A DNA stretch of 64,000 bases, taken from NCBI RefSeq assembly GCF_000739715.2, contig NZ_BBJC02000002.1, positions 274,731 through 338,730 on the forward strand. The letters are read 5' to 3'. Shown one piece after another: positions 36,359 to 40,415 of this stretch (its first letter is position 1; each line of letters starts with the position of its first letter). The stretch comes from Falsirhodobacter sp. alg1 (GTDB lineage Bacteria; Pseudomonadota; Alphaproteobacteria; Rhodobacterales; Rhodobacteraceae). The notes under the pieces are model-generated. The model did no database searches. It was not told the origin of the DNA and saw nothing but the letters and a program-made list of their open reading frames with translations. The translations under genes and the position numbers were made by a program.

Positions 36359-36510
36359 CGCAGTTCAGGGATGATTCCCGCAAACGAACGCAGGGAATCA
36401 TCCGGATACGGCCAAACAGGCATGCAGACAGCCGCGCAAAATTCTGCGTTACGGATCGGAATCATCAATTCTGGATGTTTTTCAATTGTCTATTTTTGCT
36501 TTCGCAAAAA

Positions 36511-36597
36511 TGGTGCGGTCGAGAGGACTCGAACCTCCACGGGAGTTACCCCACAGCGACCTCAACGCTGCGCGTCTACCAATTCCGCCACGACCGC
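36511..36597 (-). tRNA. tRNA-Leu (GAG)
   Basis: Minus strand, 87 bases including encoded CCA. The acceptor stem is GCGGTCG / CGACCGC, the anticodon stem-loop is CAGCG-TTGAGGT-CGCTG (anticodon GAG), and a long variable arm is present as expected for a class II tRNA. Confidence 0.95.
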
Positions 36598-36731
36598 ACT
36601 GTCTTGACTTGGTGTAGCGGGCTTCTAGCCGAGCCTGCAACCAAAGGAAAGAAGTATTTTGCACCTTTTCGACGATTGTATCCGAACGGCATTTCACCCA
36701 TTTTCAGGGCAAGAAGTGAAAGGCCCCGTTC

Positions 36732-37403
36732 ATGGAATGGTCCCATCTACCCGGCGAAGCCGATTATATCAAAACCCTGGCAGCAATGGAGGATCGGGTG
36801 GCGCGTATCGCCACCGGCACCGCTGATGAAGCCGTCTGGCTGCTGGAACACCCGCCGCTCTATACCTCCGGCACCTCGGCAAATCCTGCCGATCTGGTGG
36901 CCCCGGATCGGTTTCCTGTGCATGTGGCGGGGCGCGGGGGCCAATACACCTATCATGGGCCGGGCCAACGGGTTGCCTATGTGATGCTGAAACTTGATGC
37001 ACGCGGTCGCGATGTCCGCAAATTTGTCTGCGCGCTGGAGGATTGGGTGATCGACACGCTGGCCGAATTCGGCGTCCGCGGCGAACGCCGCACCGGGCGG
37101 GTCGGTGTATGGGTTACACGACCGGACAAGGAACCGAACCTTGACGGAACTGTCCGGGAGGACAAGATTGCCGCCATCGGGGTCAAGCTCCGCCGCTGGG
37201 TCAGCTTTCACGGAATTTCCATCAACGTCGAACCGGATCTGTCGCATTTCGAGGGAATCGTTCCCTGCGGCATACGGGAACATGGCGTGACCAGTCTGGT
37301 GGACCTCGGGCTGCCTGTTACGATGTCGGATGTGGATGCAGCACTGGTTGCCACCTTTCCGCGGCATTTTCCGGCGTTGGACAGAACGCCCGCCACGTTA
37401 TAA
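36732..37403 (+). CDS. lipB: Lipoyl(octanoyl) transferase
   Basis: Moves octanoyl groups from acyl carrier protein to lipoate-dependent enzymes. The 223 residues include [11 protein letters not shown] near 38, [18 protein letters not shown] near 70, the lysine segment [16 protein letters not shown] near 145, and the catalytic cysteine in VPCGIREHG near 177. Its last codons and stop overlap a consensus promoter that appears to serve the next gene. Confidence 0.96.
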
Positions 37404-37404
37404 T
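37377..37404 (+). promoter_or_regulatory. Promoter of the cytochrome oxidase subunit I-like gene
   Basis: TTGGAC (37377-37382), 16-base spacer, perfect TATAAT (37399-37404), overlapping the lipB stop codon and lying 31 bases ahead of the TTG start of the next gene. Confidence 0.6.
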
Positions 37405-37435
37405 AAAGCACGACACTGCCAGACCGGAGATCAGC

Positions 37436-38683
37436 TTGACCCGCGCAGCCCCCCTGTTGTTTGCAACCGATCCACGGCGGCTCGGTATCCTGTTTATCGC
37501 CACCGCCATGATTGCAGGGCTGGTGACGCTTGGCGTCACGGCAGTCATGAGCCTTGGCACAGGGCCTGCCAGTCTGGGAACGGCACATGGCGTGCTGATC
37601 ACACTGTTCGTCCTTATTCCCGTCCTGCTTGGCGGATTCGGCAATGCCCTGCTGCCTACCCGGATCGGGGCGAAGGGGCTTGCCTTTCCCCGCCTCTCGA
37701 ACCTGACCTGGTGGCTTTATATTCTGGCGCTTGGCTGTGCGATGACTGCGCTTTTCAGCGGCACCGTCTGGCCATGGGGATTGATAGCGCTTGTCCTGAT
37801 CGGCATTTCCCAGATCCTGGGCGCCATCATAGCGTTGACCACATTCATCAACATGCGCGCCATGCCTATGGCACAGGCGCCGGTTTTCGCCTGGGCCGTC
37901 GCATTGGCTTCGGCCGTCATTCTGGTATCGACTCCTGTCGTTGCCGCGGCGTCGCTTGTCTTGATGGCGGAAACCACAGCACCGGAAACGGAAACGCTGC
38001 GGCGGATCCTGTGGATCATCGGGCAGCCACAGATGGTCATCCTTGCCCTGCCCGCCCTTGGCCTGTTGGCCGAGATCGGAGCATCTGAAAAACACTGGCC
38101 CCGTCAGGCCATGGTCACGGTGTTGGGTCTGATGGCCCTGGTAGGCACAGTCCTCTGGATGGACCGTGCGATGAATGCACCTGCCCTGCCGGATGCTGAT
38201 GCGATGTTCCGCCTGTCGGCAGCCATCATCACGCCTGCCGGAATCTGTATTGCGGGTCTATGGTTGGCCTTCTGGCGCAATGCCACCTTGGCGCCCGGAA
38301 TACTGGGGGGCGGAATCGTTACTGCGACATTGATCGGCACCGCCCTTGCAATGAGTTCGAATATCGGGGCCGATCGTTTGCATGCCATGCTCGGCATCGC
38401 ATCCATCTTTGCGGCCTATGCCGGTTTCCAGATGTGGTTCGGGATTTTCACCGGCCGTGCCATGGCCCCGCGGGCGGGCGCTGTTCAGGCCGCGCTGGCA
38501 GTGGCAGGGGGCATGTTGACCCTGTGGACCAACGCGCCTTTGGCGCTTCACGCAGGTCTGGTCATCTCGTTTATCGGATTTGCGGCGCTGATCGTGATTG
38601 CCATCCACGCCGCGATCCATGGCCCTGCCGTAACATCACAGGGCCATATTCTTCCGGATCAGCCCAGCCGTGCCTTGACCTGA
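37436..38683 (+). CDS. Degenerate cytochrome c oxidase subunit I (CtaD)-like membrane protein
   Basis: Membrane protein of 415 residues with about 12 hydrophobic helices, colinear with haem-copper oxidase subunit I. Family stretches survive: TAHGVLITLFVLIPVLLGGF (49-68), GAKGLAFPRLSNLTWWL (78-94) and a helix-X-like LHAMLGIASIFAAYAGF (315-331). H51 and H316 align with the two low-spin haem ligands. The oxygen-reducing site is lost: the GHPEVY helix reads GQPQMV (196-201), the His-His copper pair is absent, and the first His of HFH is Arg (R314). The start is TTG, with a GGAG site 6 bases before. It may bind one bis-His haem and move electrons, but cannot be a normal terminal oxidase. Its 3' end overlaps yqeY by 25 bases on the other strand. 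Confidence 0.8.
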   Translation: MTRAAPLLFATDPRRLGILFIATAMIAGLVTLGVTAVMSLGTGPASLGTAHGVLITLFVLIPVLLGGFGNALLPTRIGAKGLAFPRLSNLTWWLYILALGCAMTALFSGTVWPWGLIALVLIGISQILGAIIALTTFINMRAMPMAQAPVFAWAVALASAVILVSTPVVAAASLVLMAETTAPETETLRRILWIIGQPQMVILALPALGLLAEIGASEKHWPRQAMVTVLGLMALVGTVLWMDRAMNAPALPDADAMFRLSAAIITPAGICIAGLWLAFWRNATLAPGILGGGIVTATLIGTALAMSSNIGADRLHAMLGIASIFAAYAGFQMWFGIFTGRAMAPRAGAVQAALAVAGGMLTLWTNAPLALHAGLVISFIGFAALIVIAIHAAIHGPAVTSQGHILPDQPSRALT

Positions 38684-39114
38684 GGGCCGACTGCCGCGAA
38701 ATCCATCTGTCCGGTATATTTACCCTTCAGCTCTGCCATCACGCGGCCCATGTCCCGCAGGGATGTGGCGCCTGCCGCCTCGATTGCGGCATCGATGGCA
38801 GCATTCACTTCGTCAACGCTCAGTCGACGGGGAAGGAATGCCTCGATCACCTTGATCTCTGCCTTTTCCTTGGCAGCCAGATCGACACGTCCGCCTTCTT
38901 CGTACATCCGGCTGCTTTCCTGGCGCTGTTTTACCATGCGGCTCAGGATTGCCAGAATCTCGTCATCCCCCACAGCCTCCTGACCTTCGGCACGGACGGC
39001 GATGTCACGATCCTTGATGGCGGCATTGATCAGGCGCAGGGTAGACAGGCGATCTGCTTCCTTCGCGCGCATCGCGTCTTTCAGTGCGGATTGCAGTGTG
39101 TCGCGAATGGCCAT
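38659..39114 (-). CDS. GatB/YqeY domain-containing protein
   Basis: Protein of 151 residues matching YqeY, a domain also found at the C-terminus of GatB. The start MAIRDTLQSALKDAMRAKE has a GGGAG ribosome-binding site. Conserved segments are LSTLRLINAAIKDRDIA near 28, EIKVIEAFLPRRLS near 88, and RDMGRVMAELKGKYTGQMD near 125. It may help tRNA-dependent amidation or another aminoacyl-tRNA process; its role alone is not known. It is divergent from carA. Confidence 0.92.
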   Translation of the reverse strand: MAIRDTLQSALKDAMRAKEADRLSTLRLINAAIKDRDIAVRAEGQEAVGDDEILAILSRMVKQRQESSRMYEEGGRVDLAAKEKAEIKVIEAFLPRRLSVDEVNAAIDAAIEAAGATSLRDMGRVMAELKGKYTGQMDFAAVGPQVKARLG

Positions 39115-39205
39115 CAAAAGCTCCCTTATAACAAACCAGCACATTACCCTTTGCATTCCGCCGGAGCAATCGACCTTGGCGGCACAAATGATTTACTGCC
39201 GCACC

Positions 39206-39234
39206 TTGACCCTGCACCCGCAAAAAGCATAGGT
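39206..39234 (+). promoter_or_regulatory. Possible carA promoter
   Basis: TTGACC (39206-39211), 16-17 bases, CATAGG/ATAGGT (39228-39234), about 30 bases before the carA start; an AAAGGAG ribosome-binding site follows. Confidence 0.45.
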
Positions 39235-39263
39235 TCCGACCGTTTATCAAAAGGAGTCGCGCG

Positions 39264-40415
39264 ATGGAGCCGCAATCGAAACCCACCGCCTGTCTGGCGT
39301 TGGCCGACGGCACGGTCTTCTACGGTCGCGGCTTTGGTGCCGTGGGCGAAACCGTAGCCGAGCTGGTGTTCAACACCGCGATGACCGGCTACCAGGAGAT
39401 CATGACGGACCCGTCCTATGCCGGTCAGATCGTGACATTCACCTTCCCCCATATCGGCAACGTCGGCACCACCGCCGAAGATGACGAGACCGCCGACCCC
39501 GTGGCCGCAGGCATGGTCGTGAAATGGGATCCCACCGAACCGTCGAACTGGCGTGCCACCTCCGACCTGACGAAGTGGCTGGCGGCCAAGGGCCGCATCG
39601 GAATCGGCGGTCTGGACACACGTCGCCTGACGCGGGCCGTACGCCAGCAGGGTGCGCCCCATGCCGCCCTCGCCCATGATCCCGAAGGCAACTTCGATGT
39701 AGAGGCGCTGGTCGCAAAGGCCCGCCAATGGCGCGGTCTAGTCGGCCTTGATCTGGCACGTGACGTGACCTGTGCCCAATCCTATCGCTGGGATGAAATG
39801 CGTTGGGCATGGCCCGACGGCTTCAAAACGCGTGAAGGGGCCGGGCTGAAGGTTGTCGCGATCGATTACGGTGCAAAGCGCAACATCCTGCGCTGCCTTG
39901 CCTCGGCCGGTTGCGACGTGACGGTTCTGCCCGCCACGGCCACGGCGGAGGATGTGCTTGCGCTGAACCCCGAGGGTGTATTCCTGTCGAACGGCCCCGG
40001 AGATCCTGCGGCGACCGGCGAATATGCCGTGCCAATGATCCAGGGCGTATTGGCCAAGGACGTTCCGGTCTTCGGGATCTGTCTTGGACACCAGATGCTG
40101 GCACTGGCGCTTGGCGCACAGACGGTCAAAATGAACCACGGCCATCATGGTGCCAACCACCCCGTAAAGGATGTGGATACCGGCAAGGTGGAAATCACCT
40201 CCATGAACCACGGCTTCACGGTGGATAGCCAGAGCCTGCCCGCAGGCGTCAGCGAAACGCATGTCAGCCTGTTCGACGGTTCGAACTGCGGCATCAAGGT
40301 GGATGGAAAGCCCGTATTTTCCGTACAGTACCACCCGGAGGCCAGCCCCGGCCCGCAGGACAGCTATCACCTGTTCGAACGCTTTGCCGATGCAATGAAG
40401 TCGCGTCGTGCCTGA
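39264..40415 (+). CDS. carA: Carbamoyl-phosphate synthase small subunit
   Basis: Glutaminase subunit that supplies ammonia to CarB. The 383 residues contain the N-terminal CPSase_sm domain (FGAVGETVAELVFNTAMTGYQ near 25) and a class I amidotransferase domain with the nucleophile in VFGICLGHQML near 270 and the His-Glu pair in QYHPEASPGP near 355. carB lies 17 kb away. Expression is probably independent of the following glycosyltransferase, which has its own regulatory region. Confidence 0.97.
   Translation: MEPQSKPTACLALADGTVFYGRGFGAVGETVAELVFNTAMTGYQEIMTDPSYAGQIVTFTFPHIGNVGTTAEDDETADPVAAGMVVKWDPTEPSNWRATSDLTKWLAAKGRIGIGGLDTRRLTRAVRQQGAPHAALAHDPEGNFDVEALVAKARQWRGLVGLDLARDVTCAQSYRWDEMRWAWPDGFKTREGAGLKVVAIDYGAKRNILRCLASAGCDVTVLPATATAEDVLALNPEGVFLSNGPGDPAATGEYAVPMIQGVLAKDVPVFGICLGHQMLALALGAQTVKMNHGHHGANHPVKDVDTGKVEITSMNHGFTVDSQSLPAGVSETHVSLFDGSNCGIKVDGKPVFSVQYHPEASPGPQDSYHLFERFADAMKSRRA

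Follow-up and report, generated by a model that had tools for sequence, protein, structure and literature searches.

Few known membrane proteins are as conserved as subunit I of the haem-copper oxidases; its haem-copper site is its defining part and its low-spin haem serves as the electron entry site. Cytochrome bd, a copper-free oxidase, belongs to a family unrelated to the haem-copper oxidases. Assembly of the aa3-type (A1) enzyme involves Surf1c, which in Paracoccus denitrificans is aa3-specific and binds haem A, probably via a His; a role as the chaperone that delivers haem A to subunit I has been proposed for it (PMC9145763). Surf1c joins subunit I ahead of subunits II and III (PMC5249081), and loss of Surf1 in Rhodobacter sphaeroides mainly costs haem a3 (PMC9145763). 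In open-access papers (most subscription papers being outside the scope of the search), we found neither a description of an A1 gene reduced in the manner reported here nor any paper on Falsirhodobacter together with a cytochrome; the closest printed notion found is a 'degenerate B family oxidase' lacking Tyr, mentioned in PMC6431628.

The window, a stretch of 64,000 nucleotides from Falsirhodobacter sp. alg1 (genome G000), carries an eroded version of the gene for cytochrome c oxidase subunit I, CtaD, hereafter called the relict (Table 1). Pfam COX1 matches it with an E-value of 6.3e-23 and 81.8 bits (cut-off 34.8) over profile positions 1-401 of 436, so that it is homologous to the haem-copper oxidase subunit I fold across the 12-helix core. 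Its PDB relatives are subunit I of R. sphaeroides and P. denitrificans, the former being the best (1.5e-32, phmmer). The predicted structure model has 12 long helices, with a moderate pLDDT of 68.7 overall and 58 around H316. The earlier note on this DNA had described a 415-residue, roughly 12-helix subunit I homologue, and Pfam, the PDB matches and the model bear this out. Since the NCBIfam CtaD model gives only 95.7 bits against a cut-off of 670.75, the protein is related to CtaD but is no standard CtaD. Two further COX1 genes are present in G000, one that we take to be CyoB-like and a longer one that is presumably a subunit I+III fusion. In the genome G201, a long oxidase gene that probably encodes a fused subunit I is about 3 kb away from the relict (L054 10122-12668), and its counterpart in G000 is located on another contig.

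Table 1. Features of the ctaD site in the window and the eroded surf1 gene of the same genome; positions refer to the window unless a contig (C2) is given.
Feature	Position	Strand	Remark
lipB, upstream flank of the ctaD slot	36732..37403	+	part of the order lipB-X-yqeY-carA
Possible promoter TTGGAC-16-TATAAT across the lipB end	37377..37404	+	weak; similar site in 2/4 other relict genomes
Eroded CtaD (cytochrome c oxidase subunit I-like), 415 aa	37436..38683	+	TTG start, GGAG 6 bases upstream
H51 codon, low-spin haem His (R. sphaeroides H102)	37586..37588	+	kept in 5/5 relicts
Q197..V201, replaces H284..Y288 (CuB ligand and cross-link Tyr)	38024..38038	+	from alignment
D243-R244, replaces CuB pair H333-H334	38162..38167	+	pair lost in 5/5 relicts
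R314 codon, replaces haem a3 His (H419)	38375..38377	+	Arg in 5/5 relicts
H316 codon, low-spin haem His (R. sphaeroides H421)	38381..38383	+	kept in 5/5 relicts
gatB/yqeY-like gene, downstream flank	38659..39156	-	3' end overlaps relict by 25 bp
carA, member of conserved neighbourhood	39264..40415	+	part of the order lipB-X-yqeY-carA
Eroded surf1 of G000	C2:406661-407275	-	between ctaB and thrC, about 68 kb beyond the window

With the window as query, the order lipB-X-yqeY-carA was found in 7/7 Falsirhodobacter genomes, X being an intact CtaD in two of them (G200 and G202, each with a 583-codon frame and every CtaD motif) and a relict in five. The relicts of the four other genomes (G150, G198, G199 and G201) are proteins of 400-462 aa, 30-37% identical to that of the window (BLAST), and their flanks are 90-93% (carA) and 83-88% (lipB) identical to those of the window. 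A scan limited by its pattern, in which Marivita and Roseivivax are abundant, gave 28 loci. The order lipB-COX1-yqeY-carA is seen in 24 of them, two carrying Falsirhodobacter relicts and 22 an intact CtaD (from Roseivivax, Marivita, Paracoccus, Citreimonas and MAGs); the remaining four of the 28 were short or without a neighbour. Among 28 further CtaD loci of about 4 kb, lipB or yqeY adjoins ctaD in 13, and neither lies within the short flanks in 15. Since the same order recurs across loci of the family, the slot is the old ctaD site, though perhaps not in every genus. The previous statement that no oxidase genes are adjacent holds within the window, but the site itself is that of ctaD. Between ctaD or the relict and yqeY, an ORF of 60-68 aa with an LTxAExEEM motif is present on the opposite strand in G200, G198 and G201 (L056, L055 and L054); none is listed in G199, and the overlap of the relict and yqeY 3' ends in the window leaves no room for it.

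Phylogeny agrees with this arrangement. In the tree of five flanking proteins, the five relict genomes form a clade with G200 and G202 outside it (support 100). The relict proteins are monophyletic (96), their stem being about 1.0 substitutions per site long and their tips 0.57-1.77, the intact CtaD of G200 and G202 having tips of 0.0 in the same tree, and CtaD together with the relicts is separated from the two other oxidases of G000 (100). The placement of G198 conflicts between trees: it groups with G000 and G150 for relict CtaD (100), with G199 for the flanks (76) and with G201 for Surf1 (90). Erosion is graded, the COX1 score falling from 211.7 bits in G199 to 48.4 bits in G150. Position and trees thus show the relict to be a descendant of the aa3 oxidase ctaD, altered at its own site. 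A horizontally acquired or duplicated paralogue is ruled out, given that the slot is the same as that of ctaD and that the other COX1 matches of G000 are the CyoB-like and fused genes only. An origin from the bo3 or the fused oxidase is likewise ruled out, given the grouping with CtaD (100), the attachment point within CtaD being a matter of long branches.

A contig scan with the relict protein alone as query gave no match. Relicts outside the genus were sought in 394 genomes of the family: among the matches listed, the others reach at most 306 bits, against 562 and 510 for two sampled relicts, which are themselves part of the relict profile. The trimmed ctaD has so far been seen only in Falsirhodobacter.

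The promoter proposed in the earlier note, said to be near consensus, proved less convincing. The string TTGGAC-16-TATAAT is indeed at its place across the end of lipB, but TTGGAC agrees with just 3/6 of the sigma-70 -35 hexamer TTGACA. A promoter scan of 36400-39300 listed no site, and a pattern search with that same string returned the place in Table 1 with no mismatch, which is no test of chance. Read by eye, sites at the same place are TTGAAC-16-TATAAC in G199 and TTGAAC-16-TATAAT in G201; the TTGGAC of G198 has no -10 match to go with it. In G150, where the start codon and the lipB stop overlap, nothing comparable was seen. The promoter claim is therefore a weak one.

To see which parts of subunit I stayed, the five relicts were aligned with 56 CtaD proteins picked for intact GHPEVY and HFHY motifs. 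Residue numbers and roles refer to R. sphaeroides subunit I, in which H102 and H421 are the ligands of the low-spin haem. Sixteen columns are at least 90% His in the 56 intact CtaD, and just two of them remain His in 5/5 relicts, namely the low-spin haem pair, H51 and H316 in the protein of the window. These are also the two columns kept among 15 His columns at the level of at least 95%, a choice with a chance of 1/105 if made at random. H316 was aligned by phmmer to the second His of HFHY, and comparison of the relatives' ARFHY with AHFHY settles its placement. The motifs noticed at first, TAHG (H51), GGFGN, AFPRLSNLTWW and the helix-X His H316 (RLH), are all present and aligned as had been claimed. 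The invariance of H51 and H316 among homologues had been set beforehand as a test that could refute the one-haem reading, and every relict keeps both.

The oxygen-reducing site, on the other hand, is gone. The alignment confirmed GQPQMV in place of GHPEVY, the loss of the His-His pair and an Arg for the high-spin haem His, and it supports the view that the protein is a subunit I scaffold without its oxygen-reducing site but with the bis-His site retained. The third CuB His (H284) is lost in 3/5 relicts, including that of the window, and kept only in G199 and G201. The protein of the window further shows Y288 replaced by V, E286 by Q, D132 by G and K362 by C; K362 is absent from 5/5 relicts, D132 and Y288 survive only in G199 and E286 only in G198. 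R481/R482 are deleted in all five, the Mg-site His is gone in all five, and the Mg site as a whole is gone in 4/5 and altered in G150, where E-D is aligned. R52, presumably situated near the haem a formyl, is absent from the protein of the window and present in the other four. No relict carries the set of features that marks an oxygen-reducing A1 oxidase, i.e. the three CuB His, the haem a3 His, the cross-link Tyr and the K and D channels. Loops I-II, III-IV, IX-X and XI-XII consist of 44-95% gaps, and only 30 of 356 columns that are at least 95% conserved in intact CtaD are kept across all five relicts.

Other parts of the oxidase system changed as well. CtaC-grade COX2 (1e-45) was found in G200 and G202 only, weaker COX2 matches adjoining other oxidases, and CtaG/Cox11 (PF04442) is present in the same 2/7 genomes of the genus and absent from G000; CtaA is encoded in 7/7. 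Translations of the G200 operon read in the order ctaC-ctaB-(small gene)-ctaG-ctaE-surf1-thrC, gene names being those that we presume. At the corresponding locus ctaB is kept in 5/5 relict genomes (80-84% identity in G198, G199 and G201, 82% in G000 and 86% in G150), and no ctaC or ctaG match was seen in this old operon of the five. Since the searches of these five genomes gave no intact CtaD, CtaC or Cox11, an 'assembly decoy' for an aa3 oxidase, one of the roles envisaged in the earlier note, is unlikely.

The same locus holds, just before thrC and after ctaB, an eroded surf1 in 5/5 relict genomes. Its product is 38-47% (BLAST) or 41-49% (multiple alignment) identical to Surf1 of G200, and all five copies have in common a deletion of about 17 residues. 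The His at the haem-ligand position is kept in 4/5 copies and lost in G150. The SURF1 model detects the copies of G198, G199 and G201, and those of G000 and G150 were found by BLAST with the G200 protein. In the Surf1 tree the eroded copies form a clade of their own (72) that joins Surf1c of G200 and G202 with support 99, nearer to Surf1c than to Surf1q and apart from the second Surf1 present in every genome. The further a relict CtaD lies from its G200 counterpart, the further the relict Surf1 of that genome does too (r 0.93, n=5); against flank distance, which hardly varies, r is 0.61 and 0.40. With five points this correlation is only suggestive.

In the place of ctaE, between ctaB and surf1, a protein of 194-221 aa is found in G198 and G199 (L183 7774-8439 and L184 7719-8303). 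Neither candidate has a Pfam COX3 match. Against a profile of 31 CtaE, hhalign gives a probability of 51, an E-value of 1.5e-4 and a score of 35.4, compared with 17.9 for the best of 20 shuffles, 20.2 for the reversed sequence, 21.7 for relict CtaD and 12.1 for CtaB. Judging from this profile similarity, the protein is probably an eroded oxidase subunit III.

Is the relict maintained or decaying? Amino-acid change in the relicts is fast and near the neutral rate, relict dN over flanking-gene dS being 0.56-1.23 compared with 0.12-0.23 for the flanks' own ratio; constraint may therefore be relaxed. A codon-model omega of 0.042 was set aside because of saturated branches. This rate and the graded erosion would be expected of a slowly dying remnant, in which ctaD and surf1 were left over after loss of aa3 and drift under weak or no selection, their frames staying open by chance in GC-rich DNA. 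In neutral simulations (nine settings, point changes only, whereas real lineages share some history), the frame stays open in 0.5-15% of runs per lineage, by GC and distance. A single GC-rich frame does so in up to 14.75% of runs in the mildest setting (0.1475, at 0.2 substitutions per site), but the proportion is 0.005-0.05 per lineage in seven of the nine settings, and all five relict frames are open. pN is lower than pS in 10/10 relict pairs. The helix columns of the relicts have a GRAVY of 1.17-1.38 with 5.3-6.5% charged residues, close to the intact means of 1.09 and 5.0%, whereas versions of the G200 gene evolved neutrally in simulation to 35-46% identity fall to about 0.2-0.5 with 13-15% charged. 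This hydrophobicity, far above neutral, is the strongest sign that a membrane protein is being kept. Retention of the low-spin His pair in 5/5, the sole His so kept, also speaks against decay.

Genomes of other genera that lack aa3 provide a further control. In the family, 22 genomes have no match to the relict/CtaD profile, and the 20 listed ones were searched with lipB, which is present in eight, the rest being probably without that stretch. The lipB-yqeY slot is readable in four of these (G111, G344, G257 and G219), the other four loci ending early, and it contains no COX1 trace (E-values of 0.32 at best with the profile and 0.12 with tblastn): in these four, ctaD is simply gone from the slot. 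ORFs with CxxCH c-type cytochrome motifs occupy it there (L167, L168, L169 and L171). Neither sign by which a pseudogene is recognised, a broken frame or neutral evolution, is seen in Falsirhodobacter, where frames are open and hydrophobicity is far from neutral. The check for a decaying pseudogene that the earlier note had called for thus goes against neutral decay by these two measures, though the amino-acid rate is near neutral, and we regard the dying remnant as unlikely.

A protein that is kept need not hold a haem. The scaffold could have been reused as a structural or regulatory partner, for instance of CtaB, bo3 or the fused oxidase, with the His pair serving for packing. Identity between relicts is highest in helices IV (0.49), X (0.47), II (0.45) and V (0.44) and lowest in VIII (0.25) and IX (0.28), within helix limits that we assume. 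Helices IV and V lack the His but are conserved like II and X, so that conservation extends beyond the two helices with the haem ligands. Moreover, nine derived residues are invariant in the five relicts, mostly outside the haem site (K54R, Q293R and Y456W among them, in G200 numbering). It is against this haem-free reuse that the two kept His are exactly the low-spin pair and that the co-kept partner, Surf1, is related to a haem chaperone; such a reuse seems rather improbable. We are equally doubtful about a one-haem electron relay or a quinol/redox sensor in the membrane, which the kept bis-His low-spin site would suit: CtaC, R481/R482 and the long periplasmic loops are missing, the Mg site is lost or altered, and the neighbours in the window, judging from their putative gene names, are not known redox partners. 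A NorB-type NO reductase needs the high-spin haem His and three FeB His plus a Glu; although G199 keeps H284 and Y288, G201 H284 and G198 E286, the Arg at the high-spin haem His and the loss of the HH pair, both in 5/5, make such a reductase, or an oxidase with an alternative metal at a second site still present, very improbable.

Subunit I, Surf1, CtaB and CtaA in all five genomes, without CtaC, Cox11 and the copper ligands, fit a haem-loaded single-site protein. We favour, with moderate confidence and from sequence comparison, the reading that the relict is kept as a membrane protein with a single haem, that a remodelled Surf1 supplies this haem and that oxygen reduction is no longer possible. 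By parsimony, the aa3 oxidase would have been dismantled in the ancestor of the five Falsirhodobacter species: the CuA subunit II (CtaC) and the CuB chaperone Cox11 would have been lost, CtaB and CtaA kept, and subunit I and Surf1 remodelled and retained. The relict presumably still folds as a 12-helix membrane bundle, in which H51 of helix II and H316 of helix X could bind a single low-spin haem between them that the remodelled Surf1 would help to insert; the protein should be unable to reduce oxygen or pump protons by known routes. Several observations count against this reading, namely the near-neutral relict dN, the loss of the Surf1 His in G150, the loss of R52, the conservation of helices IV and V and the moderate quality of the model. 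In addition, since Surf1 loss mainly costs haem a3, which the relict cannot hold, the R. sphaeroides result speaks against a simple loading by Surf1.

As for its use, the likeliest, proposed tentatively, would be to keep haem A or O, or to hand it on, for the oxidases that remain. Haem holding is favoured over an electron relay, given the loss of CtaC, of the propionate arginines and of the periplasmic loops connecting CuA with this haem. Since the old subunit I still looks maintained, the old enzyme may have become something else: it is possible, if somewhat speculative, that in the five species complex IV has turned into a copper-free, one-haem system made of remodelled subunit I and remodelled Surf1 (plus subunit III in two genomes), encoded at inherited loci and devoted to haem A/O handling or sensing.

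Beyond the earlier note, the comparison reveals that the relict is a ctaD eroded in place, that an eroded Surf1 is kept elsewhere and that CtaC and Cox11 are lost. Within one genus and between conserved flanks there is a natural series whose steps are an intact ctaD (G200), a mildly eroded one (G199) and heavily eroded ones (G150 and G000). It amounts to a ready-made test of what subunit I requires in order to fold and to keep just the low-spin haem. Because evolution has removed the haem a3 and CuB ligands, the co-survival of a Surf1 descendant also bears on how haem A reaches subunit I.

Compared with the aa3-type CtaD of R. sphaeroides and P. denitrificans, the relict has homology over most of its length, the gene position, the 12 helices and the low-spin His pair in common, but it lacks the CuB and haem a3 ligands and the K-channel Lys, retains D132 only in G199 and has trimmed loops; its genomes, unlike those of aa3-type hosts, have no CtaC or Cox11 that we could find. 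Surf1c, the haem A chaperone of aa3, has its counterpart in the eroded copy of the old operon in 5/5 genomes, which differs by the 17-residue deletion and the His loss in G150. Cytochrome bd is copper-free like the relict, but has three haems and reduces oxygen. The 'degenerate B family oxidase' of Magnetospirilli, as presented in PMC6431628, is similarly a haem-copper oxidase that is believed to reduce oxygen no longer; it lacks the catalytic Tyr, whereas the relict is an A1 family member lacking the ligands of copper and of the high-spin haem.
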